64,000 nucleotides of DNA, taken from contig CM034549.1 of NCBI GenBank assembly GCA_020055645.1, positions 14,653,930 to 14,717,929 of the forward strand, read 5' to 3'. The position numbers and the translations under genes are program-made. Source of the DNA: Tomocerus qinae. Lineage: Eukaryota > Arthropoda > Collembola > Entomobryomorpha > Tomoceridae. How positions within the stretch are numbered: position 1 is the first letter of the stretch; each line of letters opens with the position of its first letter. A model generated the notes under the pieces. It had not been told where the DNA came from, ran no database searches, and worked only from the letters and a program-made list of their open reading frames with translations. Below are positions 396 through 38,811 of this stretch, piece after piece.

Positions 396-605
396 CTTAA
401 GGATGGGATAAGTTGGGTTTTTAGCACTATACGCAGTACAGCTAAATCACGTCCAAATGTACGACTATTCCATCGAGAGGAATATTTTGGCTGCTAAGCT
501 GCATTCTATGGCGCGACAAACCAAGTCTGTTGTGCAGTAGTTAATTACGGTGATTGCTATTTAGTTTTGGGAACTTGATATAATAATTACTTTAATTGAT
601 TGACG

Positions 606-2008
606 ATGGACTTGAAACTATGCCAAAAGGATGGCACAAGACAAAATGTGATCTATCCTGAATTGACGGCTAATGTGGTAAGTACATTTGAGATGTATAT
701 ATAAATACGTTATTACCAACTACCAATTATATAGCTGCGGTCCCACACAAATGTAAAATATGAACTGCATATTCTATCAGGAATTTAAAAATAATTAAAT
801 ATATTATTATTACTACAGAATAAATTGTTGAAAGAAATTTGCGAGTTATCAGCAGCAGACTTCTTTGCCTTGTCGATGGAAATGGTTAATCGTTCCCATG
901 CACCGAAGAGGAACTAACCGCGGTGAAGAACCAGACTCATCGCAAAATTTCAAAAATGAAGAATCGAAAGAAGTCTAATTCGGGGGTGGAAGCGAGGGCA
1001 GTACAAAGTTTCGTACAAGTGAGTGCTCCACCTCCCGATGCAGCTCCTGCATTTTCTGAAGTAAGTAGATTTTTTACTTTAATTGCAATGCTTATACTAA
1101 TGTTACTTAGAAAATAGCTAATATCAAGTAATTGAAATCATTAAAGTATTGATTTATCAACAGGTTCCACTGATATACAAAGGGGACTTAATTGATCGTT
1201 GCCAGGAAGTCTTTTTAGACACAGAAAATGTCACTGAGGGGGTTACACACAAACCAATAGCTGGAACAATTGCAGTGGTGGATAAGAATTGGAACGTAAT
1301 ATTTTGGGTCGTGGTTAATCAAGCTAATGTTTGTCGCTACAACACCCATTTAACCGGCATTGACAAAAGCCTTCTTAGCAAAGGATTGACGTATGATATA
1401 GTGAGTTTTGCTATATAACAATTATTCGTCGACTACTCAAATAAAGGTAATCTAAGTCTAATTATATATTGTAAATTCAGGTAAAACCGCTGTTGGAAAA
1501 ATGCTTGGACGGTAAAGAAGTTATTGAGTTTTAAATTAAAAGCGATTTAAAGTGCTTAGAAGTATGCCACTCCAACGTTACAGAAATGCAGAACTTCTAT
1601 CGAGATGAGAAAAACAATCCTTATGGGTTAGGTGACCTAACAGCTCACTTTTTGGGGAAAAATGCTCAATTTGATGCAGACGGAAAACAATTTCATACAG
1701 CAATAAGAGACGCCAGGATGACAGCACTATGCTATAGAAAGATGAAAGCTTTTAAAGCTGCTTATCCAGAGAAGGTACGATTTGAGTGCCTAGTATTCGA
1801 TGCCTACAGAAACTCCAAATCCAAATCAAAATTTGTGAAATGGGATTCGTGTGGTTGTGCGTTAAAGGAGATAAAAGAAAATGGTGTCACTAAACGAAAA
1901 TTTGTTCGGGATCGAATTGGAAACTTTTCAAATGTGCGCTTAGATGAGTTTGAATTTGGTGGATCATGGCAGGGAGCGGTTTGTGACAACGAAGATGATT
2001 GGGAATAA
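606..2008 (+). CDS. DEDDh 3'-5' exonuclease gene of the MULE, left copy (four exons, interrupted)
   Basis: Visible exons are 606-677, 819-1060, 1164-1400 and 1481-2008, each bounded by GT-AG (for example gtaagt at 678 and 1061, gtgagt at 1401). The product resembles RNase T/REXO4/ISG20-type exonucleases. It shows an Exo I motif (FLDTEN, the DxE metal ligands), an Exo II-like DLKCL aspartate, and an Exo III motif FHTAIRDARMT with H-x4-D. Exon 3 to exon 4 joins in phase 0. Two oddities are seen. Exon 2 changes frame near 890-945, where this arm and the right arm differ only in C-run and A-run length. An in-frame TAA at 1532-1534, present in both arms, falls between Exo I and Exo II. The copy is therefore probably inactive, unless the stop is an error or lies in an unrecognised intron. 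A role in processing transposition ends is inference only. Confidence 0.7.
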
Positions 2009-2215
2009 AATAATAATGCAAATTTGGCTTAAAATACAGACTAAAAATTAACTGATATTTTTATTACATCAACTTCTTTTAAATGTAACTTATGTCTCTT
2101 TACATCTAGATTCCAGTCAAGTGCACTCAGTTTACATCAACTAATTATATTTTTATTACCACATTATTAAGTAATTAGAATATACTACTTTCTATTTGCT
2201 ATAATTGTGTTAACT

Positions 2216-2579
2216 GACTACTCACATATAAATTTCATTCTATTGCTCTCAATCAAATAAGCTAGTTATAATTGTAAACATCACATTATTGTAACGTTAT
2301 ATTGAATGCACCTTATAAATGTTTTTATAAATGTACTGAATTGACTACTCACATATAGATTTCATTCTATTGCTCTCAATCAAACAAACTAATTATACTT
2401 GTAATCATACATTACTGTAATGTTACTTTTAATGCACTTTATAAATGTTTTATAAATGTACAGCATTGATTACTCACATGTAGATTTCTTTCTACTGCTC
2501 TCAATCAATTATCTAATTATACCTGTAATCATCATTGCATTGACTACTCACATGTAGATTTCTTTCTATTGCGCTCAGC
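2216..2579. repeat. Tandem repeat block A of the MULE, left copy
   Basis: Four diverged copies of a unit beginning (T)GA(C/T)TACTCACAT, followed by TAGATTTC and TGCTCTCAATCAA, start near 2216, 2343, 2468 and 2541. The spacing is about 125 bp for the first units and 73 bp for the last. The block lies between the 3' ends of the two convergent genes. It may act as a shared terminator or spacer region, which is inference. It is mirrored at 11926-12289. Confidence 0.75.
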
Positions 2580-2609
2580 CAGAAGTACTTTTAGAACAAA
2601 ACCACTGTC

Positions 2610-5273
2610 AAATTATATTGCTGCTTTCAACTGGCTCTTTTTTTTACTTAAGAAATTATCAATAGCTTCCTGACGGTATTTAGGCTGTCGGATTGGCATG
2701 TTTCGTTTAATCCGAGAGTCAATGAGCTCCGGACCAAGATCTTCCTGATAAAATTTTTAAGAATTTAGTGTACATTTCACTCCACAAATGATCCGTTTGT
2801 GAACTTCTTTCAATTCTTTGAATGAATGGTTTGAATGGAATTTGTAAACTATTTTCAATCTTATAAGAATAAACTACAAAATCACACCATTTCCTGTTTG
2901 TTACATAAAGTTGCATGATGATCTGCTTATAATAAGCATGCGATTGTTTTAAGACTAACCGCTTATTTATATCGTAATGCAAATAAGGTGACGACATGAT
3001 TGCGGGTAGAGTGATTGGGTCGTGACCTATCATTGTACTAGGGCATTTGACCTCTAAAATTCCGTCTGTTCCTATCAAACCGTCGGGTGAAGCTGCTAAC
3101 ACTCCGTTTTGTAAGGACACAAACAGACCACATTCTGTTACAACATTACCTGTTGTTTCAGTATATATTCGTTTTGCTTGCCCTTCTGTTGAACTTCCAT
3201 GCTTTAAAGAATCAAGGTTTTGTAATTTCGGATCTGGCTTCAAAAAATCTCTAATGATGGAAGAATTGTTAGTTTTATCTCCAAGACTGGCAATACGCCC
3301 TGCAAACGATGCTGTTATTCTGTTCTTTCTGTAGTGAAACCATAAATGATTAGCGGATTGTCCTATGGTCTGTCGTTCAATACTATCTTGTTCAGCTTTG
3401 TCTACTTGCAGTTCGGCTATTTTTTCTTCTATTCGTACGCTAATGAAATCTACATCCATATCAGCGTCGGCTGAGTTTGGGCCATAATCTGCATCACCCA
3501 TTGAATTACGCTTATTTCTGTCACCAAACATAAGTTTCCTTCGTATTAGATTGGGCCTTCGGAATTTCAAACTTTCCTGTTCCGATTTTTTCCAAACAAG
3601 CCCCGGGCTTTTCTTTTCAATACTTTTAAAGGCTTTTGCATAGAAACTTGAACCCGATGTATAAGACAACCCTGCGGCTACTACTCTGGTGTTATAACCT
3701 CCTCTTTGGTAAAAATTTATGCGTTTTCCGCATAAGTATTTTGCACACTGTCTCATGAATCCTTCAGCTCTGTTACTGGTTATGTTATGAATTATCCTGG
3801 CTGATAAATTAGCCGTACGATTACTGATTTCCATTAGATTATCCCACATTTTTGTCTTTGAAAGGGAAATTACTATATTGGCCTCTTTCTTTCTTTCTTC
3901 GGTGCAAAAACTGTCATCACATTTAGTATGTTGTCCAAATATATGAAACGGAATGTTCTTGATATTATTAGATAATTGCTGCACGGAATCAGGTTTTGCT
4001 TGTTTATTATGAAACACAACTGCGGAGCGCAGAGCTCGCCCAAACCGATTAATTTTGCTTTTTAAAAGCTTTCTGTCACCAATACTATGGCTTTTAGTAT
4101 CATTTGAAATTTCAAAGATGCCCTTGTTATATCGCTTAATTGTATGATTGATACATTCAATTTTCTGAATTCGTAATGTTCCGTACTTAACTTCTGAAAG
4201 AAGTCTGGAATATACGGAAGAATCTCCGTCTGCGACAAAACTTTTATACACTAATTGGTGCATCTGCATGCTTGCGTTAAACCCTTCTACAATAATTGAT
4301 GATTCCATACTGCTAGAACTTTGTTTATCCCCCAATTTTCAAACAAACGTGTATACGAGGATTTGCCATTTTTTCGTCAAGTTTGCATATTATACATAAC
4401 CTATTTTTAAATCCACAGAACAAAACCTTTAGTATGATGTCCGATGATAACTGCACAACCGGAGTTAGAGTTGTACGAGTGGCCATAGGACCGTTTCCCC
4501 CAGCCTCCATCACAATAAACTGTTGTATAAGCATATTCAACTCCGTCCACGGTGACTACATCACCCCCGCTGTAGCGCAATCTCGCGCTCTTCTTTGCCG
4601 TTTTCTTGTAATTCTTGCTGTAAAGCAATGCTCCATTTTTTGGATGTACAAGTTTCAAATGATTTATACAGTTGGAAGCATGGAACGTGACACTCCATGA
4701 CTTGCAAAAGATTTTTGCTAGCCGAAAAGGGGATCCACCTGCTAAAGTCCCCCAAGCGAAAGCTTCGTTGACTGGGAGATCGGTTGAGTCATCTTCAGTG
4801 TCAAGTTTACTTTTCCAGCAACAGGCTGTGCACGATACATGGAACACGGATCTCAATCCATGAAACACTTCTAAATCGAAACTAATTTTCCCTTCTTTAC
4901 ATTGTTTTCCGTGGTCCATTGCAATGTTCATGAACCCCCAAGTGAAGCTATTGGTATTAATCGCCGTCCTTTTAGTTTCACATCCTTTGGCTGAATCGGG
5001 TTAATTTTCCGCTTCTTTTGGAACTGGTGGATCGTCAAAGTCGTCATGTATCAAAGGTGTCACTTCAATTTGATCCATGTTATGCAATGGCGTAATTTGA
5101 CCAGTAATGTCCAATGCTGCAAAATTTCTGCCATCAGATTTAATAATCGGTGTTGACGATGCTTCCTTGTTATCAATTTCATTGCTGTTCGTTATGTCAA
5201 AAATAGAAGATCGTCTCTGTTTATGCGGCGGACGACGTTTTCTAACAGAATTGGTGTTTTTATATTTTGGCAT
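2610..5273 (-). CDS. Mutator-like transposase fused to YqaJ nuclease domain, left copy (frame-broken)
   Basis: This is the reverse-complement twin of the gene at 9234-11895, where the domains are described in full. In this arm the reading frame breaks in more places. The N-terminal ORF ends early at VPKEAEN, the middle part is split near 4560-4640, and the last residues leave frame near 2755. Nearly all of these breaks coincide with homopolymer runs one base longer or shorter than in the other arm, so sequencing error is as likely as decay. The largest open part, 2719-4335, retains the second catalytic aspartate region (DGDSS), the RAEGF glutamate, and the complete YqaJ motif set (SPDG, LEVK). 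Transcription would run outward, away from the palindrome centre, and converge on the exonuclease gene across repeat block A. Confidence 0.75.
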
Positions 5274-5345
5274 TGAAATGTGTTTATATTGGTCCGGCTT
5301 GGATACTATTTCCGCTCTTCGTTTCCTAACAAATTCAAAGCATTA

Positions 5346-5870
5346 AATTGTTAAACCTGAATAAATTCAAAATATATTATTCAAACGGCGAGGTGACTGC
5401 ATTGCAAAGCAGAACAGAGTGCCAAAATAATTGATCACAATAAAAATTGATTCCACTTAAAACGATATGAATTGAAAAATGGACTGCACTTGCTTTCTGC
5501 TGTTGTTGAAAAAGGTCGAAATCTCTGTTTAATTTTCAGTATACTCCATTCGCTTCTAAAACACAAATTGGCAAACCTGAATAAATTAAAAATATATTAT
5601 TAAAACAGCAAGTTGACAATTGCAAAGCAGGACGGAGTGCCACAACAATTGATCACAATAAAAATTGATTCCATGTGCAATCTGAAATAAATAATTGATT
5701 GAACTTACTTTCTTTGTAAAAATGTAAAAAAGGTTGAAATCTCTCAGTTGTATTTTTCAATATACTCTACTCGATTTGAATACAAAATGAAAAAAAGCTG
5801 CAAATTGTCAACACCTAAATAAAATCAAAACATTGTATTACAATGGCGAGTTGGGTTTATTACCCATGTC
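5346..5870. repeat. Tandem repeat block B upstream of the transposase, left copy
   Basis: Units of about 225-230 bp start near 5350, 5573 and 5805. The first two share AACCTGAATAAATT, AATATATTATT, GCAAAGCAG and ATTGATCACAATAAAAATTG. The third is degenerate. The block sits immediately 5' of the transposase start on the minus strand, so it may hold promoter or transposase-binding sequence, which is inference. It is mirrored at 8635-9159. Confidence 0.75.
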
Positions 5871-6232
5871 ATCATACATAATAAAAACCAAAAGAAAATA
5901 TTATATATATTATATATTTTGATATTTTTCAATCTTAGTACGCTCAACAAAATCTATTACCTTTTCATTTCCCAAAGATGTTACCGTTCTTTCATTTAAT
6001 GTGGGCGTAGTTTTAGTTTTCATAAAATTGTGTCAATTTTTATAAAAACAGTGAAGATATTTGATTTTGAAAGTGCTGTGTAATATCTGCATTTGTATGT
6101 TGTTTATTTATTAGAGGAGAGGAGCAATACAAATCAACTCATAAGCAAAACATCCTAACACGTGATACCCAATGTAACACAGTAATCTTCCTTTCCCACA
6201 ACTATACCATCAATTCAAATTTCAAAATTGCC

Positions 6233-6552
6233 CATCTGTACAAAAAGCGTCCAAAATATGTAACCGATTTAAATTTTGATTTTTGATTTTTGTTTCTGGT
6301 ATAAATATCTCGGACCCAAGGCTCCCCGATTGTCGGTATTTACCTGGCATTAGATGAAATCGCCAGGCAAAGTCATCCCGCGTTTTTCTGGCGAATTTCC
6401 AAAATTTTTTTCAAAACATAACAAAAATATCAATTTCAAAAGCAGTTTTTGAAGATGTAAGAGCCTTGGGTCCGAGGCTAATAGTGGTTCTTCCATAATC
6501 AATTGACATTTTTTGTTTCAGGTAAGTTTTACTCGGGATTTTTGTACAGATG
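6233..6552. mobile_element. Small MITE-like hairpin element at the inner arm end, left copy
   Basis: This 320-bp segment starts CATCTGTACAAAAA and ends with its reverse complement TTTTTGTACAGATG. A second internal inverted pair, CTCGGACCCAAGGCTC near 6312 and its complement near 6463, lets it fold back further. No ORF is present. Flanking target duplications could not be recognised. It is either a MITE inserted beside the MULE or part of the MULE end. It is mirrored at 7953-8272. Confidence 0.6.
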
Positions 6553-6562
6553 TGGAGTACGA

Positions 6563-7858: not shown

Positions 7859-7866
7859 TAACGACA
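7859..7866. repeat. Target site duplication, left (TAACGACA)
   Basis: Exact 8-bp match to 18746-18753, directly abutting the inverted GTAGTAAGTATACTAC termini. Confidence 0.85.
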
Positions 7867-7952
7867 GTAGTAAGTATACTACGGTCTACGGCTCAAGCAT
7901 TGATAGGTATGCCCCTACTCCTTATACATGGAAAGGTATGCATCGTACTCCA

Positions 7953-8272
7953 CATCTGTACAAAAATCCCGAGTAAAACTTACCTGAAACAAAAAATGTC
8001 AATTGATTATGGAAGAACCACTATTAGCCTCGGACCCAAGGCTCTTACATCTTCAAAAACTGCTTTTGAAATTGATATTTTTGTTATGTTTTGAAAAAAA
8101 TTTTGGAAATTCGCCAGAAAAACGCGGGATGACTTTGCCTGGCGATTTCATCTAATGCCAGGTAAATACCGACAATCGGGGAGCCTTGGGTCCGAGATAT
8201 TTATACCAGAAACAAAAATCAAAAATCAAAATTTAAATCGGTTACATATTTTGGACGCTTTTTGTACAGATG
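7953..8272. mobile_element. Small MITE-like hairpin element, right copy
   Basis: Mirror of 6233-6552, with the same CATCTGTACAAAAA termini and internal CTCGGACCCAAGG inverted pair. No coding capacity. Confidence 0.6.
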
Positions 8273-8634
8273 GGCAATTTTGAAATTTGAATTGATGGTA
8301 TAGTTGTGGGAAAGGAAGATTACTGTGTTACATTGGGTATCACGTGTTAGGATGTTTTGCTTATGAGTTGATTTGTATTGCTCCTCTCCTCTAATAAATA
8401 AACAACATACAAATGCAGATATTACACAGCACTTTCAAAATCAAATATCTTCACTGTTTTTATAAAAATTGACACAATTTTATGAAAACTAAAAACTACG
8501 CCCACATTAAATGAAAGAACGGTAACATCTTTGGGAAATGAAAAGGTAATAGATTTTGTTGAGCGTACTAAGATTGAAAAATATCAAAATATATAATATA
8601 TATAATATTTTCTTTTGGTTTTTATTATGTATGA

Positions 8635-9159
8635 TGACATGGGTAATAAACCCAACTCGCCATTGTAATACAATGTTTTGATTTTATTTAGGTGTTGACA
8701 ATTTGCAGCTTTTTTTCATTTTGTATTCAAATCGAGTAGAGTATATTGAAAAATACAACTGAGAGATTTCAACCTTTTTTACATTTTTACAAAGAAAGTA
8801 AGTTCAATCAATTATTTATTTCAGATTGCACATGGAATCAATTTTTATTGTGATCAATTGTTGTGGCACTCCGTCCTGCTTTGCAATTGTCAACTTGCTG
8901 TTTTTAATAATATATTTTTAATTTATTCAGGTTTGCCAATTTGTGTTTTAGAAGCGAATGGAGTATACTGAAAATTAAACAGAGATTTCGACCTTTTTCA
9001 ACAACAGCAGAAAGCAAGTGCAGTCCATTTTTCAATTCATATCGTTTTAAGTGGAATCAATTTTTATTGTGATCAATTATTTTGGCACTCTGTTCTGCTT
9101 TGCAATGCAGTCACCTCGCCGTTTGAATAATATATTTTGAATTTATTCAGGTTTAACAA
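8635..9159. repeat. Tandem repeat block B, right copy
   Basis: Mirror of 5346-5870. It lies directly upstream of the transposase start at 9234, and three units of about 225 bp are recognisable. Confidence 0.75.
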
Positions 9160-9233
9160 TTTAATGCTTTGAATTTGTTAGGAAACGAAGAGCGGAAATA
9201 GTATCCAAGCCGGACCAATATAAACACATTTCA

Positions 9234-11895
9234 ATGCCAAAATATAAAAACACCAATTCTGTTAGAAAACGTCGTCCGCCGCATAAACAGAGACGATCTT
9301 CTATTTTTGACATAACGAACAGCAATGAAATTGATAACAAGGAAGCATCGTCAACACCGATTATTAAATCTGATGGCAGAAATTTTGCAGCATTGGACAT
9401 TACTGGTCAAATTACGCCATTGCATAACATGGATCAAATTGAAGTGACACCTTTGATACATGACGACTTTGACGATCCACCAGTTCCAAAGAAGCGGAAA
9501 ATTAACCCGATTCAGCCAAAGGATGTGAAACTAAAAGGACGGCGATTAATACCAATAGCTTCACTTGGGGGTTCATGAACATTGCAATGGACCACGGAAA
9601 ACAATGTAAAGAAGGGAAAATTAGTTTCGATTTAGAAGTGTTTCATGGATTGAGATCCGTGTTCCATGTATCGTGCACAGCCTGTTGCTGGAAAAGTAAA
9701 CTTGACACTGAAGATGACTCAACCGATCTCCCAGTCAACGAAGCTTTCGCTTGGGGGACTTTAGCAGGTGGATCCCCTTTTCGGCTAGCAAAAATCTTTT
9801 GCAAGTCATGGAGTGTCACGTTCCATGCTTCCAACTGTATAAATCATTTGAAACTTGTACATCCAAAAATGGAGCATTGCTTTACAGCAAGAATTACAAG
9901 AAAACGGCAAAGAAGAACGCGAGATTGCGCTACAGCGGGTGATGTAGTCACCGTGGACGGAGTTGAATATCCTTATACAACAGTTTATTGTGATGGAGGC
10001 TGGGGGAAACGGTCCTATGGCCACTCGTACAACTCTAACTCCGGTTGTGCAGTTATCATCGGACATCATACTAAAAAGGTTTTGTTCTGTGGATTTAAAA
10101 ATAGGTTATGTATAATATGCAAACTTGACGAAAAAATGGCAAATCCTCGTATACACGTTTGTTTGAAAAATTGGGGGATAAACAAAGTTCTAGCAGTATG
10201 GAATCATCAATTATTGTAGAAGGGTTTAACGCAAGCATGCAGATGCACCAATTAGTGTATAAAAGTTTTGTCGCAGACGGAGATTCTTCCGTATATTCCA
10301 GACTTCTTTCAGAAGTTAAGTACGGAACATTACGAATTCAGAAAATTGAATGTATCAATCATACAATTAAGCGATATAACAAGGGCATCTTTGAAATTTC
10401 AAATGATACTAAAAGCCATAGTATTGGTGACAGAAAGCTTTTAAAAAGCAAAATTAATCGGTTTGGGCGAGCTCTGCGCTCCGCAGTTGTGTTTCATAAT
10501 AAACAAGCAAAACCTGATTCCGTGCAGCAATTATCTAATAATATCAAGAACATTCCGTTTCATATATTTGGACAACATACTAAATGTGATGACAGTTTTT
10601 GCACCGAAGAAAGAAAGAAAGAGGCCAATATAGTAATTTCCCTTTCAAAGACAAAAATGTGGGATAATCTAATGGAAATCAGTAATCGTACGGCTAATTT
10701 ATCAGCCAGGATAATTCATAACATAACCAGTAACAGAGCTGAAGGATTCATGAGACAGTGTGCAAAATACTTATGCGGAAAACGCATAAATTTTTACCAA
10801 AGAGGAGGTTATAACACCAGAGTAGTAGCCGCAGGGTTGTCTTATACATCGGGTTCAAGTTTCTATGCAAAAGCCTTTAAAAGTATTGAAAAGAAAAGCC
10901 CGGGGCTTGTTTGGAAAAAATCGGAACAGGAAAGTTTGAAATTCCGAAGGCCCAATCTAATACGAAGGAAACTTATGTTTGGTGACAGAAATAAGCGTAA
11001 TTCAATGGGTGATGCAGATTATGGCCCAAACTCAGCCGACGCTGATATGGATGTAGATTTCATTAGCGTACGAATAGAAGAAAAAATAGCCGAACTGCAA
11101 GTAGACAAAGCTGAACAAGATAGTATTGAACGACAGACCATAGGACAATCCGCTAATCATTTATGGTTTCACTACAGAAAGAACAGAATAACAGCATCGT
11201 TTGCAGGGCGTATTGCCAGTCTTGGAGATAAAACTAACAATTCTTCCATCATTAGAGATTTTTTGAAGCCAGATCCGAAATTACAAAACCTTGATTCTTT
11301 AAAGCATGGAAGTTCAACAGAAGGGCAAGCAAAACGAATATATACTGAAACAACAGGTAATGTTGTAACAGAATGTGGTCTGTTTGTGTCCTTACAAAAC
11401 GGAGTGTTAGCAGCTTCACCCGACGGTTTGATAGGAACAGACGGAATTTTAGAGGTCAAATGCCCTAGTACAATGATAGGTCACGACCCAATCACTCTAC
11501 CCGCAATCATGTCGTCACCTTATTTGCATTACGATATAAATAAGCGGTTAGTCTTAAAACAATCGCATGCTTATTATAAGCAGATCATCATGCAACTTTA
11601 TGTAACAAACAGGAAATGGTGTGATTTTGTAGTTTATTCTTATAAGATTGAAAATAGTTTACAAATTCCATTCAAACCATTCATTCAAAGAATTGAAAGA
11701 AGTTCACAAACGGATCATTTGTGGAGTGAAATGTACACTAAATTCTTAAAATTTTATCAGGAAGATCTTGGTCCGGAGCTCATTGACTCTCGGATTAAAC
11801 GAAACATGCCAATCCGACAGCCTAAATACCGTCAGGAAGCTATTGATAATTTCTTAAGTAAAAAAGAGCCAGTTGAAAGCAGCAATATAATTTGA
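9234..11895 (+). CDS. Mutator-like DDE transposase fused to YqaJ nuclease domain, right copy
   Basis: Three overlapping ORFs (9234-9578, 9575-10219, 10159-11895) read as one protein of roughly 880 residues. The frame shifts twice, each time at a five-G run (near 9568 and 10173). The first part is basic (RKRRPPHKQRR). The second has cysteine/histidine pairs and the first catalytic motif VYCDGGWGKRSYGH (D140 of that ORF). The third has VADGDSSVYSRL (D40), a Cys/His cluster HTKCDDSFC, the RAEGFMRQ glutamate (E195), and then a YqaJ/lambda-exonuclease-like domain at about 335-440 with GSSTEGQA, SPDG (D422) and LEVK (E432, K434). This arrangement matches proteins annotated in arthropods as Mutator-like transposase domain proteins and the Cc8L18.2-like group. 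The start at 9234 follows a 5' region without an obvious splice acceptor. Both frame changes occur in both arms, so they are either inherited decay or systematic G-run undercalling. Confidence 0.82.
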
Positions 11896-11925
11896 CAGTG
11901 GTTTTGTTCTAAAAGTACTTCTGGC

Positions 11926-12289
11926 TGAGCGCAATAGAAAGAAATCTACATGTGAGTAGTCAATGCAATGATGATTACAGGTATAATTAGATAATTGATT
12001 GAGAGCAGTAGAAAGAAATCTACATGTGAGTAATCAATGCTGTACATTTATAAAACATTTATAAAGTGCATTAAAAGTAACATTACAGTAATGTATGATT
12101 ACAAGTATAATTAGTTTGTTTGATTGAGAGCAATAGAATGAAATCTATATGTGAGTAGTCAATTCAGTGCATTTATAAAAACATTTATAAGGTGCATTCA
12201 ATATAACGTTACAATAATGTGATGTTTACAATTATAACTAGCTTATTTGATTGAGAGCAATAGAATGAAATTTATATGTGAGTAGTCAG
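11926..12289. repeat. Tandem repeat block A, right copy
   Basis: Mirror of 2216-2579. Four units begin just downstream of the transposase stop, and it separates the two convergent genes. Confidence 0.75.
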
Positions 12290-12494
12290 TTAACACAATT
12301 ATAGCAAATAGAAAGTAGTATATTCTAATTACTTAATAATGTGGTAATAAAAATATAATTAGTTGATGTAAACTGAGTGCACTTGACTGGAATCTAGATG
12401 TAAAGAGACATAAGTTACATTTAAAAGAAGTTGATGTAATAAAAATATCAGTTAATTTTTAGTCTGTATTTTAAGCCAAATTTGCATTATTATT

Positions 12495-13899
12495 TTATTC
12501 CCAATCATCTTCGTTGTCACAAACCGCTCCCTGCCATGATCCACCAAATTCAAACTCATCTAAGCGCACATTTGAAAAGTTTCCAATTCGATCCCGAACA
12601 AATTTTCGTTTAGTGACACCATTTTCTTTTATCTCCTTTAACGCACAACCACACGAATCCCATTTCACAAATTTTGATTTGGATTTGGAGTTTCTGTAGG
12701 CATCGAATACTAGGCACTCAAATCGTACCTTCTCTGGATAAGCAGCTTTAAAAGCTTTCATCTTTCTATAGCATAGTGCTGTCATCCTGGCGTCTCTTAT
12801 TGCTGTATGAAATTGTTTTCCGTCTGCATCAAATTGAGCATTTTTCCCCAAAAAGTGAGCTGTTAGGTCACCTAACCCATAAGGATTGTTTTTCTCATCT
12901 CGATAGAAGTTCTGCATTTCTGTAACGTTGGAGTGGCATACTTCTAAGCACTTTAAATCGCTTTTAATTTAAAACTCAATAACTTCTTTACCGTCCAAGC
13001 ATTTTTCCAACAGCGGTTTTACCTGAATTTACAATATATAATTAGACTTAGATTACCTTTATTTGAGTAGTCGACGAATAATTGTTATATAGCAAAACTC
13101 ACTATATCATACGTCAATCCTTTGCTAAGAAGGCTTTTGTCAATGCCGGTTAAATGGGTGTTGTAGCGACAAACATTAGCTTGATTAACCACGACCCAAA
13201 ATATTACGTTCCAATTCTTATCCACCACTGCAATTGTTCCAGCTATTGGTTTGTGTGTAACCCCCTCAGTGACATTTTCTGTGTCTAAAAAGACTTCCTG
13301 GCAACGATCAATTAAGTCCCCTTTGTATATCAGTGGAACCTGTTGATAAATCAATACTTTAATGATTTCAATTACTTGATATTAGCTATTTTCTAAGTAA
13401 CATTAGTATAAGCATTGCAATTAAAGTAAAAAATCTACTTACTTCAGAAAATGCAGGAGCTGCATCGGGAGGTGGAGCACTCACTTGTACGAAACTTTGT
13501 ACTGCCCTCGCTTCCACCCCCGAATTAGACTTCTTTCGATTCTTCATTTTTTGAAATTTTGCGATGAGTCTGGTTCTTCACCGCGGTTAGTTCCTCTTCG
13601 GTGCATGGGGAACGATTAACCATTTCCATCGACAAGGCAAAGAAGTCTGCTGCTGATAACTCGCAAATTTCTTTCAACAATTTATTCTGTAGTAATAATA
13701 ATATATTTAATTATTTTTAAATTCCTGATAGAATATGCAGTTCATATTTTACATTTGTGTGGGACCGCAGCTATATAATTGGTAGTTGGTAATAACGTAT
13801 TTATATATACATCTCAAATGTACTTACCACATTAGCCGTCAATTCAGGATAGATCACATTTTGTCTTGTGCCATCCTTTTGGCATAGTTTCAAGTCCAT
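12495..13899 (-). CDS. DEDDh 3'-5' exonuclease gene of the MULE, right copy (four exons, interrupted)
   Basis: This is the twin of 606-2008 on the opposite strand. The start codon is at 13897-13899. Exons lie at about 13828-13899, 13443-13686, 13103-13339 and 12495-13022, with the same GT-AG borders. In this arm exon 2 reads further, through TEEELTAVKNQTHRKISK, before leaving frame near an A run. Together with the left arm this shows that the two single-base differences decide the frame. The in-frame TAA between Exo I and Exo II is shared. Motifs DTEN and H-x4-D (HTAIRD) are intact. Confidence 0.7.
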
Positions 13900-14109
13900 C
13901 GTCAATCAATTAAAGTAATTATTATATCAAGTTCCCAAAACTAAATAGCAATCACCGTAATTAACTACTGCACAACAGACTTGGTTTGTCGCGCCATAGA
14001 ATGCAGCTTAGCAGCCAAAATATTCCTCTCGATGGAATAGTCGTACATTTGGACGTGATTTAGCTGTACTGCGTATAGTGCTAAAAACCCAACTTATCCC
14101 ATCCTTAAG

Positions 14110-14405
14110 GGTATGAATTTACTCTGCCTTATGGATAGGTATGCCCCCTACTCCTTATACATGGAAAGCATGTAAATACCCGAGTGATGAGTCTGTTGAT
14201 TTCTCGGCTATGAACTTAGTCTCAGCTCAAGCATTGATAGGTATGCCCCTAATCCTTATACATGCAAAGTTATGCATCTTCCTGAGTGCCGAGTATTAGG
14301 ATATGAACTTATTTATGGATAGGTATGCCTCCTACTTCTTATATATGAAAAGCATGTAAATACCTCTGAGTGTTGAGTTATAGTGTGTGAACTACATCTC
14401 ATATC
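14110..14405. repeat. Subterminal ~97-bp repeats of the foldback element, left arm
   Basis: Units share GATAGGTATGCC, ACTCCTTATACATG and a GAGTG(C/T)(C/T)GAGT tail. Copies are near 14132, 14231 and 14322. A first copy at 7899-7942 is cut off by the MULE insertion. Units alternate between GCATGTAAATACC and ATGCATC versions, giving a higher-order period of about 190 bp. Such terminal repeats often serve as transposase-binding arrays, which is inference here. Confidence 0.75.
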
Positions 14406-14921
14406 ACTCTGTTACAGTAAGCTGCCTCAAACGGTCATTGGTAAAACAGTGGGGCGGGTGGGGTAGGCTGACAATTAATGTGAATATTCAAATTCAGACC
14501 CCTATTTTAAAAACGGTTTTCATTTGTGGATATTTTTTATTATTTGCCAATAAAATCACAGATTTCCATTATAGAATTTTGATTTCTAATAACCATCCCA
14601 ATGGATATCATTTATTTATAGTGCATTTTATTATACCCTAAGTAAGTTACATAGTGATTATACCAGCGTACACTGGGATGTATTATATTCAGGAACCTAA
14701 TTAGTTTATTTATTAGTATTATGACAGTCTCTCGAAGGAAATGAAGTCAATGCTCAGTGTTTAATATTTCCCAAACAAGAAAGATGCGATTGCAATTGAC
14801 TAAAAATATGATTTTAAATATTTTTTGTGATGCTTATGCGAATATGGTGGGCATTTTGCTAAATAAGTAATAAAATTACTAATATGTTTATTATTAGTTT
14901 TTTTTATTTCACGTATAGATT

Positions 14922-15584
14922 TTATTTCGTATTGAGTGCATCAACAATTGGGAAAAACAATTTCTTTGTTAATTTAAATCCGTCTTTTTCTGCTGCTTTC
15001 AGGATAACTCTTAAAATATCCAATGACATATCCGTTAGTTCATCATCACCATGTTCATCATCTTCATCATCAGTTTCAGCATCGTCATTTTCAGTTTCTC
15101 CGTCTTCTTCACTTTCATTGTCCTCTTCATCTTCATCGTCACATAATTCAGATTTGTCTCCACAAATTTCTTCATGGGTCTTGGTGCAATTCAGTAATGA
15201 TTTTAGCAAATTTTTGCTAAGCTTAATATAATTAAATTCTGCATTATGCACCATTCTTTGAAACATCTTAATGCATTCGGTTGAAAATTCTTCGTTTTCA
15301 CTTGAGTCAGCATTTGATTCCAAATTACTGTCACCAGAGTTGGATTCTTCTTCAGAACGATCATTTTGTTCAAAATTAGAATATTTGTTCTTTAGAGGAT
15401 TCAAAGTGTAATTTATTTGCGTGGCTTCATCCGATTCAATGTTAGAATATTTTCTTTTACGTCCAAGTTTATCAATGGATGAACCCCCAGACTGTCTTTT
15501 ACCATGTACTTCTCTTTGATGTCGGAATAAATTTCCCTTATTATAATAGCATTTTCCGCAAGTTTTGCATTCCATCTTCAACAA
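14922..15584 (-). CDS. Acidic single C2H2 zinc-finger protein, left arm copy
   Basis: This intact 220-aa ORF has a protein identical to the one at 17169-17831. One canonical C2H2 finger lies at residues 6-27 (C6, C9, H22, H27; spacing C-x2-C-x12-H-x4-H). A basic patch KLGRKRK follows, and then a long Ser/Glu/Asp-rich region including a stretch of nearly pure D/E at about 152-185. The last 40 residues look helical (LDILRVILKAAEKDG). The gene is transcribed outward from the palindrome centre. The product is probably nuclear and DNA-binding. A regulator of the element or a captured host gene are both possible. No transposase motif is present. Confidence 0.75.
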   Translation of the reverse strand: MLKMECKTCGKCYYNKGNLFRHQREVHGKRQSGGSSIDKLGRKRKYSNIESDEATQINYTLNPLKNKYSNFEQNDRSEEESNSGDSNLESNADSSENEEFSTECIKMFQRMVHNAEFNYIKLSKNLLKSLLNCTKTHEEICGDKSELCDDEDEEDNESEEDGETENDDAETDDEDDEHGDDELTDMSLDILRVILKAAEKDGFKLTKKLFFPIVDALNTK

Positions 15585-15717
15585 TTATATCTGAAATGTA
15601 ATAATTGATACTTTCAGGAGCAGTTATGTTGTGTTATGTTGTGTTCAGTTGCTGAACGTACAATGAAGTAAATATTAACAGACACAACACTTTTGTCTTT
15701 GCATACGTAATACATCA

Positions 15718-16262
15718 CGATGCAATGCAATATACTATATTTTTATGTAAAAAGATGCGATGTCATGCGAAGTGATATTATGCATTTGCATTATGATGCG
15801 ATTTGGTACAAGGCGACACAATACAATGCGATGCAATACAATACAATGCGATGAAATACAATAAAATGCGATGCAATACGATGCGATGTAATACAATACA
15901 ATGCGATCCAATACGGTGCGATGCAATGCAATGCGATTCAATATAATGCGATGCAATGCGATGCAATACAATGCGATGCAATGAGATACAATACAATGCG
16001 ATGCAATACAATGCGATGCAATACGATGCGATGCAATACAATGCGATGCAATGAGATACAATACAATGCGATGCAATACAATGCGCTGCAATACGATGCG
16101 ATGCAATACAATGCAATTCAATATAATGCGATGCAATGCGATACAATACAATGCGATGCAATGCGATACAATACAATGCGATGCTATGCAATGCGATACC
16201 ATACAATGCATAACATGCAATAAGATATAAATCAATGCATTATGATGTATACATTAACATGC
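15718..16262. repeat. Pentanucleotide-derived repeat tract, left arm
   Basis: About 540 bp built almost only from 5-bp words AATGC, GATGC, AATAC and variants. All long ORFs here are by-products of the repeat (HCIAS/YCIAL-type peptides). It is mirrored at 16520-17035 in opposite orientation, so the two can pair over about 500 bp. Confidence 0.85.
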
Positions 16263-16326
16263 ACTTCGATACAATACTTTAAGGTGGAATGCAATGCACT
16301 ACAATGCGATGCATCATGATAAGATA

Positions 16327-16455
16327 CAGTCTTGCGGTATAGTAACCGCAGTGCGGTTTTTGAGTCCGCATTGCGGTTTTGCGGACCGCAGTGCGGTTTT
16401 TCAGACCGCAATGCGGACTCAAAAACCGCACTGCGGTTACTCTACCGCAAGACTG
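16327..16455. promoter_or_regulatory. GC-rich core of short palindromes at the foldback centre
   Basis: At the exact centre the sequence switches to repeated ACCGCAGTGCGGT-like palindromes and GAGTCCGCATTGCGG, with a 27-nt loop at 16378-16404 holding a further CCGCAGTGCGG. It contrasts sharply with the AT-rich surroundings. It lies midway between the two divergent zinc-finger genes. It may be a bidirectional promoter, a protein-binding array or a replication/recombination hotspot. None of these is shown by the sequence alone. Confidence 0.5.
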
Positions 16456-16519
16456 TATCTTATCATGATGCATCGCATTGTAGTGCATTGCATTCCACCT
16501 TAAAGTATTGTATCGAAGT

Positions 16520-17035
16520 GCATGTTAATGTATACATCATAATGCATTGATTTATATCTTATTGCATGTTATGCATTGTATGGTATCGCATTGCATAGCA
16601 TCGCATTGTATTGTATCGCATTGCATCGCATTGTATTGTATCGCATTGCATCGCATTATATTGAATTGCATTGTATTGCATCGCATCGTATTGCAGCGCA
16701 TTGTATTGCATCGCATTGTATTGTATCTCATTGCATCGCATTGTATTGCATCGCATCGTATTGCATCGCATTGTATTGCATCGCATTGTATTGTATCTCA
16801 TTGCATCGCATTGTATTGCATCGCATTGCATCGCATTATATTGAATCGCATTGCATTGCATCGCACCGTATTGGATCGCATTGTATTGTATTACATCGCA
16901 TCGTATTGCATCGCATTGTATTGCATCGCATTTTTTTGTATTGCATCGCATTGTATTGTGTCGCCTTGTAACACATCATAACGCATAATATCACTTCGCA
17001 TGACATAATATATTACATTGCACCGTGTTGTATTA
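16520..17035. repeat. Pentanucleotide-derived repeat tract, right arm
   Basis: Inverted counterpart of 15718-16262, made of GCATT, GCATC and GTATT words. It differs from the left tract by substitutions and by the loss of some units near 16920-16980. Confidence 0.85.
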
Positions 17036-17168
17036 CGTATGCATAGGTAGATTAAGACAAAAGTGTTGTGTCTCTTTATATTTACCTCATTGTACGTTCA
17101 GCAACTGAACACAACATAACACAACATAACTGCTCCTGAAAGTATCAATTATTACATTTCAGATATAA

Positions 17169-17831
17169 TTGTTGAAGATGGAATGCAAAACTTGCGGAAA
17201 ATGCTATTATAATAAGGGAAATTTATTCCGACATCAAAGAGAAGTACATGGTAAAAGACAGTCTGGGGGTTCATCCATTGATAAACTTGGACGTAAAAGA
17301 AAATATTCTAACATTGAATCGGATGAAGCCACGCAAATAAATTACACTTTGAATCCTCTAAAGAACAAATATTCTAATTTTGAACAAAATGATCGTTCTG
17401 AAGAAGAATCCAACTCTGGTGACAGTAATTTGGAATCAAATGCTGACTCAAGTGAAAACGAAGAATTTTCAACCGAATGCATTAAGATGTTTCAAAGAAT
17501 GGTGCATAATGCAGAATTTAATTATATTAAGCTTAGCAAAAATTTGCTAAAATCATTACTGAATTGCACCAAGACCCATGAAGAAATTTGTGGAGACAAA
17601 TCTGAATTATGTGACGATGAAGATGAAGAGGACAATGAAAGTGAAGAAGACGGAGAAACTGAAAATGACGATGCTGAAACTGATGATGAAGATGATGAAC
17701 ATGGTGATGATGAACTAACGGATATGTCATTGGATATTTTAAGAGTTATCCTGAAAGCAGCAGAAAAAGACGGATTTAAATTAACAAAGAAATTGTTTTT
17801 CCCAATTGTTGATGCACTCAATACGAAATAA
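17169..17831 (+). CDS. Acidic single C2H2 zinc-finger protein, right arm copy
   Basis: This intact 220-aa ORF encodes the same protein as 14922-15584 on the other arm. The start at 17169 is supported by the initiator MLKMECKTCGK and by a good splice acceptor just upstream (ATTACATTTCAG, ending about 17162), suggesting an intron in the 5' UTR. An AATAAA overlaps the stop codon. Features are a finger at residues 6-27, a basic KLGRKRK patch, and an acidic D/E-rich domain from about 75 to 190. Keeping both copies open and identical suggests recent homogenisation, selection, or a recent insertion. Confidence 0.78.
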   Translation: MLKMECKTCGKCYYNKGNLFRHQREVHGKRQSGGSSIDKLGRKRKYSNIESDEATQINYTLNPLKNKYSNFEQNDRSEEESNSGDSNLESNADSSENEEFSTECIKMFQRMVHNAEFNYIKLSKNLLKSLLNCTKTHEEICGDKSELCDDEDEEDNESEEDGETENDDAETDDEDDEHGDDELTDMSLDILRVILKAAEKDGFKLTKKLFFPIVDALNTK

Positions 17832-18364
17832 AATCTATACGTGAAATAAAAAAATCTAATAATAAACATATTAGTAATTTTATTACTCATTTAGCAAAAT
17901 GCCCACCATATTCGCATAAGCATCACAAAAAACATTTAAAATCATATATTTTTAGTCAATTGCAATCGCATCTTTCTTGTTTGCGAAATATTAAACACTG
18001 ACCATTGACTTCATTTCCTTCGAGAGACTGTCATAATACTAATAAATAAACTAATTAGGTTCCTGAATATAATACATCCCAGTGTACGCTGGTATAATCA
18101 CTATGTAACTTACTTAGGGTATAATAAAATGCACTATAAATAAATGATATCCATTGGGATGGTTATTAGAAATCAAAATTCTATAATGGAAATCTGTGAT
18201 TTTATTGGCAAATAATAAAAAATATCCACAAATGAAAACCGTTTTTAAAATAGGGGTCTGAATTTGAATATTCACATTAATTGTCAGCCTACCCCACCCG
18301 CCCCACTGTTTTACCAATGACCGTTTGAGGCAGCTTACTGTAACAGAGTGATATGAGATGTAGT

Positions 18365-18745
18365 TCACACACTATAACTCAACACTCAGAGGTATTTACA
18401 TGCCTTTCATATATAAGAAGTAGGAGGCATACCTATCCATAAATAAGTTCATATCCTAATACTCGGCACTCAGGAAGATGCATAACTTTGCATGTATAAG
18501 GATTAGTGGCATACCTATCAATGCTTGAGCTGAGACTAAGTTCATAGCCTAGAAATCAACAGACTCAGCACTCGGGTATTTACATGCTTTCCATGTATAA
18601 GGAGTAGGGGGGCATACCTATCCATAAGGGAGAGTAAATTCATACCCTTAAACTCGGCACTGAGGTAGATGCATACCTTTCCATGTATAAGGAGTAGGGG
18701 CATACCTATCAATGCTTGAGCCGTAGACCGTAGTATACTTACTAC
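18365..18745. repeat. Subterminal ~97-bp repeats and terminus of the foldback element, right arm
   Basis: Four units in the reverse orientation (CATGTATAAGGAGTAGG...GCATACCTATC) run to the terminus CCGTAGTATACTTACTAC. This arm keeps the uninterrupted version of the repeat that is broken by the MULE in the left arm. It therefore shows what the pre-insertion site looked like. Confidence 0.78.
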
Positions 18746-18753
18746 TAACGACA
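18746..18753. repeat. Target site duplication, right (TAACGACA)
   Basis: Exact 8-bp match to 7859-7866. Confidence 0.85.
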
Positions 18754-30673: not shown

Positions 30674-33600
30674 TTAAGCGTAGGTGGTCTCCATTTCTAT
30701 TTCTGTTACCGATGTAGCAGCGGTGAACAGACTCTCCTTTTCTACATCATTGGACTTTTTTGTCAAAGTGATGCCGTTCTCCCGACGATGACCATTGCCG
30801 TTGACGTTGGCATTATTTAAAGTCATTCGATTTGATTTACGAGTGGATCTCATCGAACGGATGGAAGTGCCTCTCCGACTTACGTCTCTGTCTCCTCCCC
30901 GTCGCATGAAAATGTTCTTAAGAGATTTTCGGAAATTCCTTCCACTGACGCAATACAAGAGGAAATTCACAGAGAAGTTCGTATTGAATAGGATGTTCGA
31001 CCAACTCTGAAGTGCGCCCAGTGTTTGAGAATAGTCGTTTGAGCCCCACAGCGACTATTTTACCAAAAGAACAGAAAAAGTTATCAGATTAGATTGGATT
31101 ACGTCCATACAGTACATTGTCTATGTTAACGTTATCTCTCAACTCCCTAGAGGATCAATGAGCCTCTCTAGCAAAAAAAGAATATTTATTCCCTATTCCT
31201 ATACGTAGTAATTGTACAACATTTGCGACTGTATGAGAACCCGTATCTCACTTTTCTTTGACAATAATTACAGACTCAACTTATCGTTATACAATAGAAT
31301 ACAAAAGAACCCACGCACGAACTAGCTATCATAACACTAAATATCGCATTTTTGACTGCGAATTTTCACAATGTGATACATAAATCTGACATTGCGAACG
31401 CAACTTGCTCTTGAAAATCTACCGTATTATTTCTCGTTTCATCCAATGGATTTGATACTAATGGATATAAGGCGTTACTCCTTACGGGTACCAAAATTCT
31501 GATTTCCTTTCTGTGAACCAGAAAAACTAACCTGGCTGTCTTTCAAGATGTTCCAGGGTATCACCAGGAAGAGAAACAACAACCACAAAAAACTTCCGGA
31601 TGAGCAAAAAAATAAAAACTAAACCTACAGCAAGCCGTAACAGAAGCTCGCCTGAGTAAAGGTTGCCGTGTACACATTTTGGTAAACGAAAAGTACTCGC
31701 ACGTAACAGAAAACCGAGCGTACGGATTTTGAGCAAATTTTTAGAACTGAGTCTTTATATATAGCTACGGCATATTAAAAATTCAGACATTGATATTATA
31801 TACTATATCACTTGAAAAATCAACATACAATCAAAATTGATAATTGTTGACTGAAAATCAAAAGAAAAACAAAATGGATTAATGTTGACTATGAAAATCA
31901 ACAGAAAATCAAAATTGATTAATGTTGACTATGAAAATCAACAGAAAAACAAAATTGATTAATGTTGGCTATGAAAATCAACAAAAAATCAAAAATTGAT
32001 TAATGTTGACTATGAAAATCAAAAGGGAATCAAAATTGATTAATGCTGACTATGAAAATCAACAGAAAATCAAAATTAGTTAGTATTGAGTATTAAAATT
32101 AACAGAAAATCAAAATTAATTAATATTGACTATGAAAATCAAAAGGGAATCAAAATCGGTCAATATTGTTTATCAAAATCAATAGGAATTCGAAAAATGC
32201 AAGTTTGACTACATAATTGAATACAAATGCGAAATATATTTATTTCCGTCCTCTAATTGTTATTTTCCGGTTTGATTTGCTTTATTATAAAATCTTAAAT
32301 TTGGTAGAAGCGGAGTGAAATATTTTATACTATCCTCTAACAATTTATAGGAAACGCCATTGAACTTTTTAATGTCCATTTAATGCCTAATTTTCACTTT
32401 GACTATCAAAATGAAGACAAAGTGAGCGCGCGGTATCACAGCAACCAATGGACCGATTTACCCCAAATTCAATAGGGATCGTCAGTGGCCCATAGGCATT
32501 GTTTTTGCCAAGTTTGGTCAATAACCGTCTTTGCTTTCGAAAGTTATCGTGGGGACGGACGGACGTACGGACGGACGTACGGACGTACGGACAGACTGTG
32601 CGGTTCTATAAGCTCGCTTCCTCAGGCGAGCTAAAAATAAACTGAAAATCTTCAAAAAAGCTATTAGAAAAAACCATCATGAATGAACTGCTATCCTATC
32701 CTCCAGAGGCTTCCTTAGAGACCGTGGCCTTCGTCGCTCCCGAAGAAATCGGAGATTTGGCAGATTATCAATTCAAGGATTGTTTCTATATAACTTTGAG
32801 AAAAAGTAGATAAGTTACGTTTGTCAGTAAAAAACACCTGGGTATGCAAAAAATAAATTTGCATTACATTGCCGGAATGTAGGTATTTTGCATTTAGAGC
32901 ACATAATAGTATACACATGGAAATGAAAAGTGCATTTCTGTATGCCAAACAATGCCTTAGTTTCTCCTTTCATAGAACTCAAATTACTGAAGACTAGTGA
33001 AAGTTTCGGATAGTTTTAGTACGTGAAAAGAGAAAGTTGTAAGCACCTTTAAAAACACCATACCCTACAGTAACGGATTTCCAATCTAAATTCTAGAAAG
33101 GTTGTTTTGTGAAACTATTAGAAAACATAATTAAATTGTAACTAAACCTATTAACCACATGTATCCATGTATTTTGTGAGAAGAAAACATTATGGAAAAT
33201 GAATTTCTGTACCGAAGTTTCCCTTTTCTCCGCACAATATCTGATTAAACTTTCTCCATACGTATTACGTAACATTTCTCTATAGGTATCATTTTCTTTC
33301 AATCTAAAGCAACCTATTCACATTTTCTTTGGACTATTTTGTAAATATGACCAGATATTGCGATGTAATGGGTTGTATACATGTAAAACAGTAATCTTTA
33401 AAACGGCATCAGATTTTATAAATACTAGTGATGATAGTAAAAATTATACCTTAAGAAACATCGCAGCCCTAATAGCATGAGACGGCAAATTCAACACAAG
33501 AAATACCGTCGAGACGAGCAAAAGTGTTTTGGTGACACGGACTTCAGCAGCCGAATGACCCGGGGATGACGAGGAGTTGCAACCAACGATACTGTTGATA

Positions 33601-36423: not shown

Positions 36424-37595
36424 CTTTAAACAATATAAATTCATTTCATCAAGTTGCTTTTACATGTTGACCTACTCATTCAAGCTAAATATTTTGTTAA
36501 CCACCCAGACTACAGATATTGTAGTTACGCAATCCTAACTAAGTGTTTATTTTGATAAATTCTAAAAATAGAACGAATTATTCCGGATAGATAAGTTAAA
36601 ACAGAAATTTGATTCCCCATCTTCCTTCACCTCGCTACTGTCGCTACTTCACTTGGAAGTTTCGCAGTCTGTGAATTTGAAATATATTAAACATTTGGAC
36701 GTAAAGACGATATACTACTGACGGAGATACATTTTATTTCCAGGAAGTCTGTGTAATGTTGCAAAGGTAAGAGGTAACTGTTTCTTCGAGTTTCTTTTAT
36801 TATGTGACAAGAAAGAAGGATTTTTCATGCAATTTCCTACACCTCTTAAGTAAACAGTCCGTAAATACGACTTTGTGTTGAGAGATTCGACGCAATATCA
36901 AACACATGGATAATTTAAATGTCTATTTTTGCCACATGGGTAAACATGAAAGAATGATGCACAGTGATGCTCACAGTAGTCATTGAAATTCAAAATAATA
37001 CTGCAGATATGAGAATTCATTTTTCTCCTGCATTCCAACATTTTCTGAGAAAAACGTAATAAATTCAAGCTGCTTCAACAATAAAATTACTTTTGAAAAA
37101 TATGGCTGAGCGAATGTTACTAGTGCACTATGTGATATCTAAAAGATTCAGTTTTGCAATCCAATGATTTTGGTTAATACCTATATGTTTGCATCTCATA
37201 TTCGTACACCGCTGTGCTACCAAATACCCCTTCAATTCAGTTCAGAAGATATTCATCTGTCAAATGTTATTTACTTTCTTGTTTCCCACAGCCTTTGCGA
37301 TTCAAACAGTTTGAGTTTCAACAAACGCGATTCTTATGCTTGCTCAAGCAAAATTAACAAGCCATTAGCTAATCAGTTTCAATAATTTTAACGTAGGGAT
37401 TTCAAGCTTGTGAAGAGGGATCTCATACTCAAACAATGTAAACCACAATATAACACCTAGGGAACTTTTGAGCATCTGCACCTGCTCAAAAGTTCAAAGG
37501 AACTTTTGAGCACCCATGCAGCATTTGGCATAGGTAGGCATGCCATGAATGCCAGGCCGTGCCAGACGCTTCACAAATAACCCTTTTCATTTTAT

Positions 37596-38222: not shown

Positions 38223-38223
38223 T

Positions 38224-38662: not shown

Positions 38663-38811
38663 TAATATGAAATGGGTTATTTGTGAAGCTTCTGGCACGG
38701 CCTGGCATTCGTGGCATGCCCACCTATGCCAAATGCTGCATGGGTGCTCAAAAGTTTCTTTGAACTTTTGAGCAGGTGCAGATGCTCAAAAGTTCCCTAG
38801 GTCAATATAAC

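Follow-up and report, generated by a model that had tools for sequence, protein, structure and literature searches.

The stretch of DNA analysed here (the window) comprises 64,000 nucleotides (nt) of the genome of the springtail Tomocerus qinae (GenBank assembly GCA_020055645.1, contig CM034549.1, positions 14,653,930 to 14,717,929). Between positions 7860 and 18752 it contains a foldback element with a zinc finger (ZF) gene in each of its two inverted arms, interrupted by an unrelated transposon. The element proper runs from 7866-7944 and from 14105-18746, approximately 4.72 kb in total. Its terminus recurs on Maverick-like elements of the same genome, and we propose that it is probably a satellite of such elements. 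The following features were distinguished:

7860..7865, left target site duplication (TSD), AACGAC; 6 bp, read from the sequence
7866..7944, + strand, outer 79 bp of the left arm, including the terminus AGTAGTAAGTATACTACGG; 100% inverted match to 18668-18746; the terminus is also present on 9.6-kb Maverick-like elements
7945..14104, nested unrelated transposon with a Mutator-like transposase (PF20700) and a YqaJ nuclease; boundaries accurate to within a few bases
14105..15699, remainder of the left arm, with subterminal repeats and the ZF gene; from inverted-repeat comparison
14922..15584, - strand, left copy of the ZF gene; one C2H2 finger, acidic regions and conserved helical segments; 217 amino acids (aa) from the ATG
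15807..16210, left 5-bp repeat tract; from tandem-repeat analysis
16326..16460, central palindrome with five CCGCANTGCGG motifs at an exact spacing of 20 bp; from inverted-repeat and motif analysis
16573..16970, right 5-bp repeat tract, mirroring the left one; from tandem-repeat analysis
17054..18746, right arm, with the ZF gene, subterminal repeats and terminus; from inverted-repeat comparison
17169..17831, + strand, right copy of the ZF gene, identical to the left copy (0/663 nt differences)
18747..18752, right TSD, AACGAC; 6 bp, read from the sequence

Structure of the element

The arms are complementary over stretches of 898 bp (99%), 686 bp (98%) and 568 bp (97%). The original prediction, made from the sequence of the window, described 7859-18753 as a palindromic foldback element. 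The inverted arms and the element are real, but palindromy does not extend over the entire interval, since 7945-14104 is occupied by the nested transposon. The 97-bp terminal repeat that had been described is exact over 79 bp, up to the insertion; approximately 17 bp that the right arm has kept are gone from the left arm at the insertion point, where no duplication was seen. The described 8-bp target duplication proved to be the 6-bp AACGAC plus one base of the element on each side. In contrast, the two ZF genes were correctly read as identical, open and pointing outward (open frame of 220 aa, 217 aa when counted from the ATG), the 5-bp repeat tracts are present, and the palindromic core is GC-rich, with a G + C content of 53% for the central palindrome and 35% for 14105-18746.

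With its long and internally repetitive inverted repeats, the element has the structure of a foldback. Its open reading frames (ORFs) are the ZF gene, ORFs in the repeat tracts and ORFs antisense to the ZF gene; the ORF list of the element proper contained no transposase, PolB, rve integrase, ATPase, protease or capsid gene.

Ends and target site duplications

With at most 2 mismatches allowed, the 18-bp terminus occurs at 73 places in the genome and the backward control sequence at 20; of the 73 places, 28 are exact. Its recurrence is therefore not due to chance. The exact termini form 13 pairs, plus two single ends in loci L052 and L053. Reading of the flanks showed that the element begins one base further out (AGTAGT...ACTACT), and exact 6-bp TSDs were present at all 13 pairs, 7 of which are Maverick-like and 6 foldback elements (12 pairs were tested together and the L045/L046 pair was read from its flanks).

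Nine further pairs had related ends: the ZF-bearing F71, F48, F136, C1:54.47 and C1:81.70 (positions in Mb), the Maverick-like C1:136904-146788 and C1:138.70, and two PolB palindromes at C1:39.71 and C1:67.60. Seven of these have exact 6-bp TSDs; at C1:81.70 and C1:138.70, 5 of the 6 bases agree. A 6-bp target duplication is typical of Polinton/Maverick elements, and an 8-bp duplication is the criterion for a foldback of the P/hAT type. A P/hAT-type foldback with an 8-bp TSD was rejected because the other copies have 6-bp TSDs.

Maverick-like elements with the same terminus

Seven of the 13 exact-terminus pairs enclose elements of 9.6-10.6 kb. One of them, L039, was annotated and contains 15 ORFs of at least 80 aa. 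A Pfam scan of ten of these identified an rve integrase (7e-10) and a poxvirus A32-type ATPase (6.7e-5); a match to the adenovirus protease was weak (0.011, below cut-off). An ORF of 388 aa had no significant Pfam match, and from its place and sequence features we take it to be the major capsid protein. All seven elements match the ATPase (98-100%), integrase and capsid-like proteins of L039, some of these genes being broken, and are Maverick/Polinton-like. No PolB match fell within the seven elements among the matches listed, and the ORFs listed for L039 did not include PolB. The ATPase and capsid-like ORFs of L039 are both on the minus strand, and because the capsid-like ORF occupies the side where PolB-bearing relatives have PolB, the PolB-less form appears to have come about by rearrangement rather than by simple deletion.

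One end of the foldback copy L050 aligns with both ends of L039, with 84% identity over 208 bp for one and 92% over 154 bp for the other. The foldback thus has Maverick-type ends but no Maverick enzymes. Ends of the F71 type also flank C1:136904-146788 (TSD CATTGT, exact) and C1:138.70 Mb (5/6); both contain ATPase and integrase matches, with no PolB among the matches listed. The listed PolB, ATPase, integrase and ZF matches lie mostly on C1 (140 of 334 Mb), by eye in excess of its share.

Palindromes carrying the zinc finger gene

A search of the genome with the ZF protein gave 100 matches, many of them as diverging pairs. The copy count called for in the original prediction thus found the protein in other copies and the element to be multi-copy. 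Ten of the loci are palindromes. The ZF frame is open in both arms in seven (the window copy, L048, L051, F71, F48, F39 and C9), and the second copy is broken or split in the other three (L049, L050 and F136). F71, F48 and F136 have other AGTAGTA ends and exact 6-bp TSDs (AACGTC, ATTGTG and CTAATT, respectively). The ZF-bearing element at C1:54.47 Mb has AGTAGTA-type ends and the exact TSD GGTAAG, and that at C1:81.70 Mb has inverted arms of approximately 0.85-0.9 kb at 94% identity, with one ZF match.

Single-arm or inverted-repeat copies were found as well (L047, L052, L021, L026 and L072); L047 is a copy of 2667 bp with one ZF match, inverted ends of 294 bp and an exact TSD. In the stretches fetched for L022, L025, L029, L035, L036, L038 and L056, no long inverted repeat surrounds the ZF gene. 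The ZF match at C1:75596417-75597004 has an ATPase match at a distance of approximately 6.1 kb and a PolB match at 7.4 kb, which made it a candidate for a ZF gene within a PolB-bearing Maverick; no ORF in this region (L056 and L073, C1:75.6 Mb) was recognised as a Maverick gene, with no Pfam scan made. L072 (C2:48537400-48541400) is a more distant ZF element with inverted repeats of approximately 1.3 kb, possibly an older form.

The zinc finger protein

The protein has one C2H2 finger (Pfam E-value 2.2e-5; 25.1 bits, against a curated cut-off of 25.2), and its other Pfam matches were weak. An alignment of seven sequences showed conserved segments at about residues 104-128 and 180-207, separated by acidic stretches; the finger is absent from the C9 fragment used, and one finger cysteine is altered in L026. 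The predicted structure has a mean predicted local distance difference test (pLDDT) score of 63.9, with helices in both conserved segments and long stretches of low confidence. Searching PDB sequences with a profile of the protein gave 93 matches at E ≤ 1; among the best 60 of these 93, all below E 0.1 were through the finger end.

The ratio of nonsynonymous to synonymous divergence (dN/dS, as mean dN over mean dS) was determined for one arm each from 16 open-frame copies; fragments, unfetched copies, L021 with its stop codon and the copies C9, L056 and L072 did not enter the calculation. It was 0.215 (21 near pairs), 0.300 (14 near-mid pairs), 0.259 (49 near-far pairs), 0.251 (14 mid-far pairs) and 0.236 (21 far-far pairs). 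The protein is under purifying selection, and the dN/dS check that had been suggested thus came out at 0.215-0.300 across all five groupings. Bootstrap 95% intervals were 0.15-0.42 for the window copy (W) versus F48 and 0.13-0.89 for W versus F71; given the width of the latter, the closest comparisons are weak when taken alone.

Identity between arms and central motifs

Bin and motif statistics cover eight of the ten ZF palindromes; F39 and C9 were inspected for motifs separately. Within one element the arms are 99.3-100% identical, versus 93.7-98.8% between most elements of this family (99.5-99.7% for L049 versus L050). In 7 of 8 palindromes the two arms of one element are sisters. In F48 and F136 the 300-bp bins are all at 99.7-100% identity apart from the one at the centre, which is at 96.2% in F48 and 95.0% in F136; the central bin of L048 is at 73.7%. 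The motif CCGCANTGCGG occurs 2 to 11 times in each of the eight palindromes, at steps of 20 or 40 bp within clusters. It was found neither in the 70,000 bases of L039-L045 nor in the 59,358 bases of the window outside 14105-18746.

PolB palindromes

A search of the genome for the PolB family gave 83 matches. Pairing with ATPase matches used 74 of these 83 and 112 of the 137 ATPase matches, the dropped ones being apparent second fragments of the same genes. For 50 of the 74, there is an ATPase match no more than 12 kb away; among the other 24, 13 form six inverted pairs. When a 510-aa piece of the PolB of one palindrome was used as query, 12 inverted pairs emerged, with the left copy on the plus and the right copy on the minus strand, at 53-100% identity.

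Palindromy was checked at the DNA level for two of the 12 pairs. The palindrome at C1:39708886-39722263 is flanked by TGTTCT on both sides and is 100% identical in its outer 600 bp and 98.5% in its centre; that at C1:67600607-67613550 is flanked by TTTGTT on both sides, with 97.5% in its centre. Some of the PolB genes that have an ATPase match nearby are 90-97% identical to the 510-aa piece; in two such cases, at C1:112.51 and C1:112.78 Mb, the order of matches is capsid (+), integrase (+), ATPase (-), PolB (-). From the end of the element to the start of the PolB query, the Maverick at C1:112.5 Mb measures 3257 bp and the two PolB palindromes 3414 and 3262 bp. The end of this Maverick matches the two palindrome ends at 81 and 91% (91% over 157 bp for L070), and the end of the ZF palindrome F136 (L032) at 80% over 158 bp. 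Because spacing and end matches agree, the examined PolB palindromes appear to consist of one end of a PolB-bearing Maverick and its mirror image. This combination of spacing and end match, which marks derivation from a genome end, was seen for PolB palindromes only.

By eye, the PolB palindromes L068 and L069 have an imperfect central hairpin in common that resembles L035:278-364, beside a ZF gene at C1:129.06 Mb. The hairpin may be a common centre of the PolB and ZF classes of palindromes.

Origin of the element

We consider the foldback of the window to be, with a probability of roughly 0.7, a non-autonomous, mirror-image satellite of a Polinton/Maverick (adintovirus-like) family, which arose by snap-back and is moved by the Maverick integrase. 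The 6-bp TSDs and the termini in common with integrase/ATPase elements place it in a Maverick-type rather than a P/hAT-type integration system. What was observed are the common ends, the common duplication length, the palindromes and the selection on the gene; what we infer is a copy-back origin, replication and integration in trans, and regulation by the ZF protein.

A terminal piece of a protein-primed linear DNA, consisting of one Maverick end and one gene, would have been copied back to give a head-to-head dimer, which would thereby gain two usable ends. Maverick PolB and integrase could then replicate and insert this satellite in trans, and the arms would be made equal again whenever one arm serves as template for the other. 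The ZF protein, expressed outward on both sides of the centre, might bind the repeats of the element itself or the common ends, and such binding may control transcription, replication or packaging. If the protein binds the repeats of its own element, the CCGCANTGCGG motifs, spaced at 20 bp in 8 of the 10 palindromes, are possible candidate sites.

Several observations weigh against this explanation. Mobilisation and replication in trans are steps that we infer, and the exact-terminus elements point to no helper for replication (no PolB among the matches listed). At L056 and L073 the ZF gene was not seen to lie within a Maverick, and the proposed step that combines a Maverick end with a ZF gene is drawn from the PolB case and from published reports. 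Some members of the class deviate: the ZF palindrome C9 has other ends, with a match of at most 4 bp; the F39 palindrome (8.97 kb) extends past any AGTAGTA end and has none at its limits; L021 has inverted flanks and no TSD; and in L072, of a 229-aa group, long inverted repeats enclose only one ZF gene. CCGCANTGCGG was not found in F39 or C9 and is therefore not general to the ZF palindromes. Lower identity reaches several hundred bp from the centre in L051 and F71, the differences in W are spread over the outer 1500 bp (98.3-100% per bin), and ordinary gene conversion could equalise the arms. The model of the ZF protein had no fold match in PDB or BFVD (viral) at E ≤ 0.001, and viral contigs searched with the ZF protein (A1) and the L039 ATPase yielded no confirmed relative.

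A more far-reaching version, which we put forward as tentative and on balance doubtful, is a segmented Maverick lineage, in which the capsid/integrase segment lost PolB while PolB and a ZF regulator reside on separate palindromic segments with common AGTAGTA ends that integrate independently. Palindromic dimers would then be the stable form of a segment in a protein-primed DNA virus-transposon. Since PolB-bearing Mavericks exist in the same genome, the observations do not require an obligatory segmented system.

We also consider it rather unlikely that, in what is otherwise a Maverick satellite, intrachromosomal gene conversion acting after insertion, and not snap-back replication, keeps the arms identical. 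Palindromes are known to undergo conversion, a central loop would remain asymmetric, and the differences in W are scattered along the arms. However, conversion alone explains neither the recurrence of whole palindromes with two different genes nor the agreement in end-to-PolB spacing between palindrome arms and a Maverick.

We regard it as improbable that the ZF gene was captured from the host and is carried by a Maverick-derived foldback. Its C2H2 finger belongs to a type that is common in hosts, ZF relatives occur at C1:139.10, C1:64.84, C1:40.13 and on C81 (surroundings unfetched), and the seven loci named above have no long inverted repeat in the stretch fetched. On the other hand, ten ZF loci are palindromes, five more are single-arm or inverted-repeat copies, and zinc finger genes are reported from some adintoviruses in the available part of PMC11071296.

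There is very little to be said for an ordinary cut-and-paste foldback (P/Galileo, hAT or Mutator) that has an 8-bp duplication and acquired a ZF gene. In its favour, the inverted repeats of the element are long and internally repetitive, as stated for Galileo and Foldback in the portion of PMC3573991 that was available, and the window copy by itself can be read with an 8-bp duplication; 13 of 13 exact-terminus pairs nevertheless have a 6-bp TSD, the termini are common to elements encoding integrase and ATPase, and the element proper has no transposase ORF. The view of the original prediction that the element fits no ordinary foldback family is borne out by a multi-copy palindrome whose arms each encode a conserved protein of the DNA-binding type and whose ends are Maverick-like. 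Palindromes are a known artefact of long reads, and those of L021 and F39 continue into the flanking DNA, but an origin from foldback chimeric reads in sequencing or assembly is the least credible explanation of all, given 6-bp TSDs beside differing flanks in many copies of several families and a gene under purifying selection.

If the satellite explanation is correct, Maverick satellites account for a coding foldback element, and gene-bearing palindromic satellites under selection are a model for the break-up of a single-molecule virus-like transposon into separately inserted parts. It predicts, for any Maverick-rich genome, elements with common ends, a 6-bp duplication and one gene, mirrored.

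Nested transposon and other repeats in the window

Pfam identified the PF20700 (Mutator) and YqaJ domains in the nested transposon (7945-14104, 6.2 kb), which has an inverted copy at 396-6562 with 99.7% identity. Its first 2.26 kb is present at at least 13 places in the genome at 99-100% identity, both window copies included; the DNA similarity searches scored 40 candidates on the first pass, so that their counts are lower bounds. The near-identical copies suggest that this transposon has recently been active. In addition, the window contains a foldback-like inverted pair at 37455-38802 (approximately 574 bp, 91%), built of 20-bp tandem repeats with about 31 and 22 copies per side, and an array of about 9 copies of a 40-bp repeat at 31816-32199.

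Comparison with known systems

With Polinton/Maverick elements and adintoviruses the window element has in common the terminal inverted repeats, the 6-bp duplication and ends that occur on elements with integrase, ATPase and capsid-like genes. Unlike these, it encodes no Maverick enzyme and has a palindromic body with one ZF gene per arm. According to the part of PMC8363768 available, adintoviruses carry PolB on the same molecule, whereas the exact-terminus partner of the foldback is without PolB among the matches listed. Zinc finger genes do occur in some adintoviruses, as far as the accessible text of PMC11071296 goes.

Among the processes found, the snapback subgenomes of adeno-associated virus (AAV) appear, by analogy, to be the nearest described one. 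In the accessible sections of PMC8235507, these (5'-SBG and 3'-SBG) are head-to-head molecules derived from one genome end, with regulatory effects, and the 3'-SBG has a central promoter and bidirectional expression. They are packaged pieces of a parvovirus, in contrast to the window-type elements, which are integrated and multi-copy, with a gene under purifying selection. Palindromic derivatives also exist for linear killer plasmids and adenovirus.

The bidnavirus-like Vesanto virus and bidnaviruses have several separate segments that resemble each other in their inverted terminal repeats, and some of these segments carry PolB homologues (PMC8363768, in part). They are described there as multi-segmented single-stranded DNA viruses, and the available part of that paper mentions neither a palindromic segment body nor an rve integrase. 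Drosophila Foldback (FB) and Galileo resemble the window element in their long, internally repetitive inverted repeats. Galileo differs in its P-superfamily transposase and 7-bp flanking sequences, and the available portion of PMC3573991 makes no mention of arms that each contain a gene.

In the listed titles and openings of abstracts from the literature on Polinton/Maverick, adintovirus, foldback and protein-primed linear DNA (a search outside which most subscription papers fall), palindromic Maverick satellites were not described.

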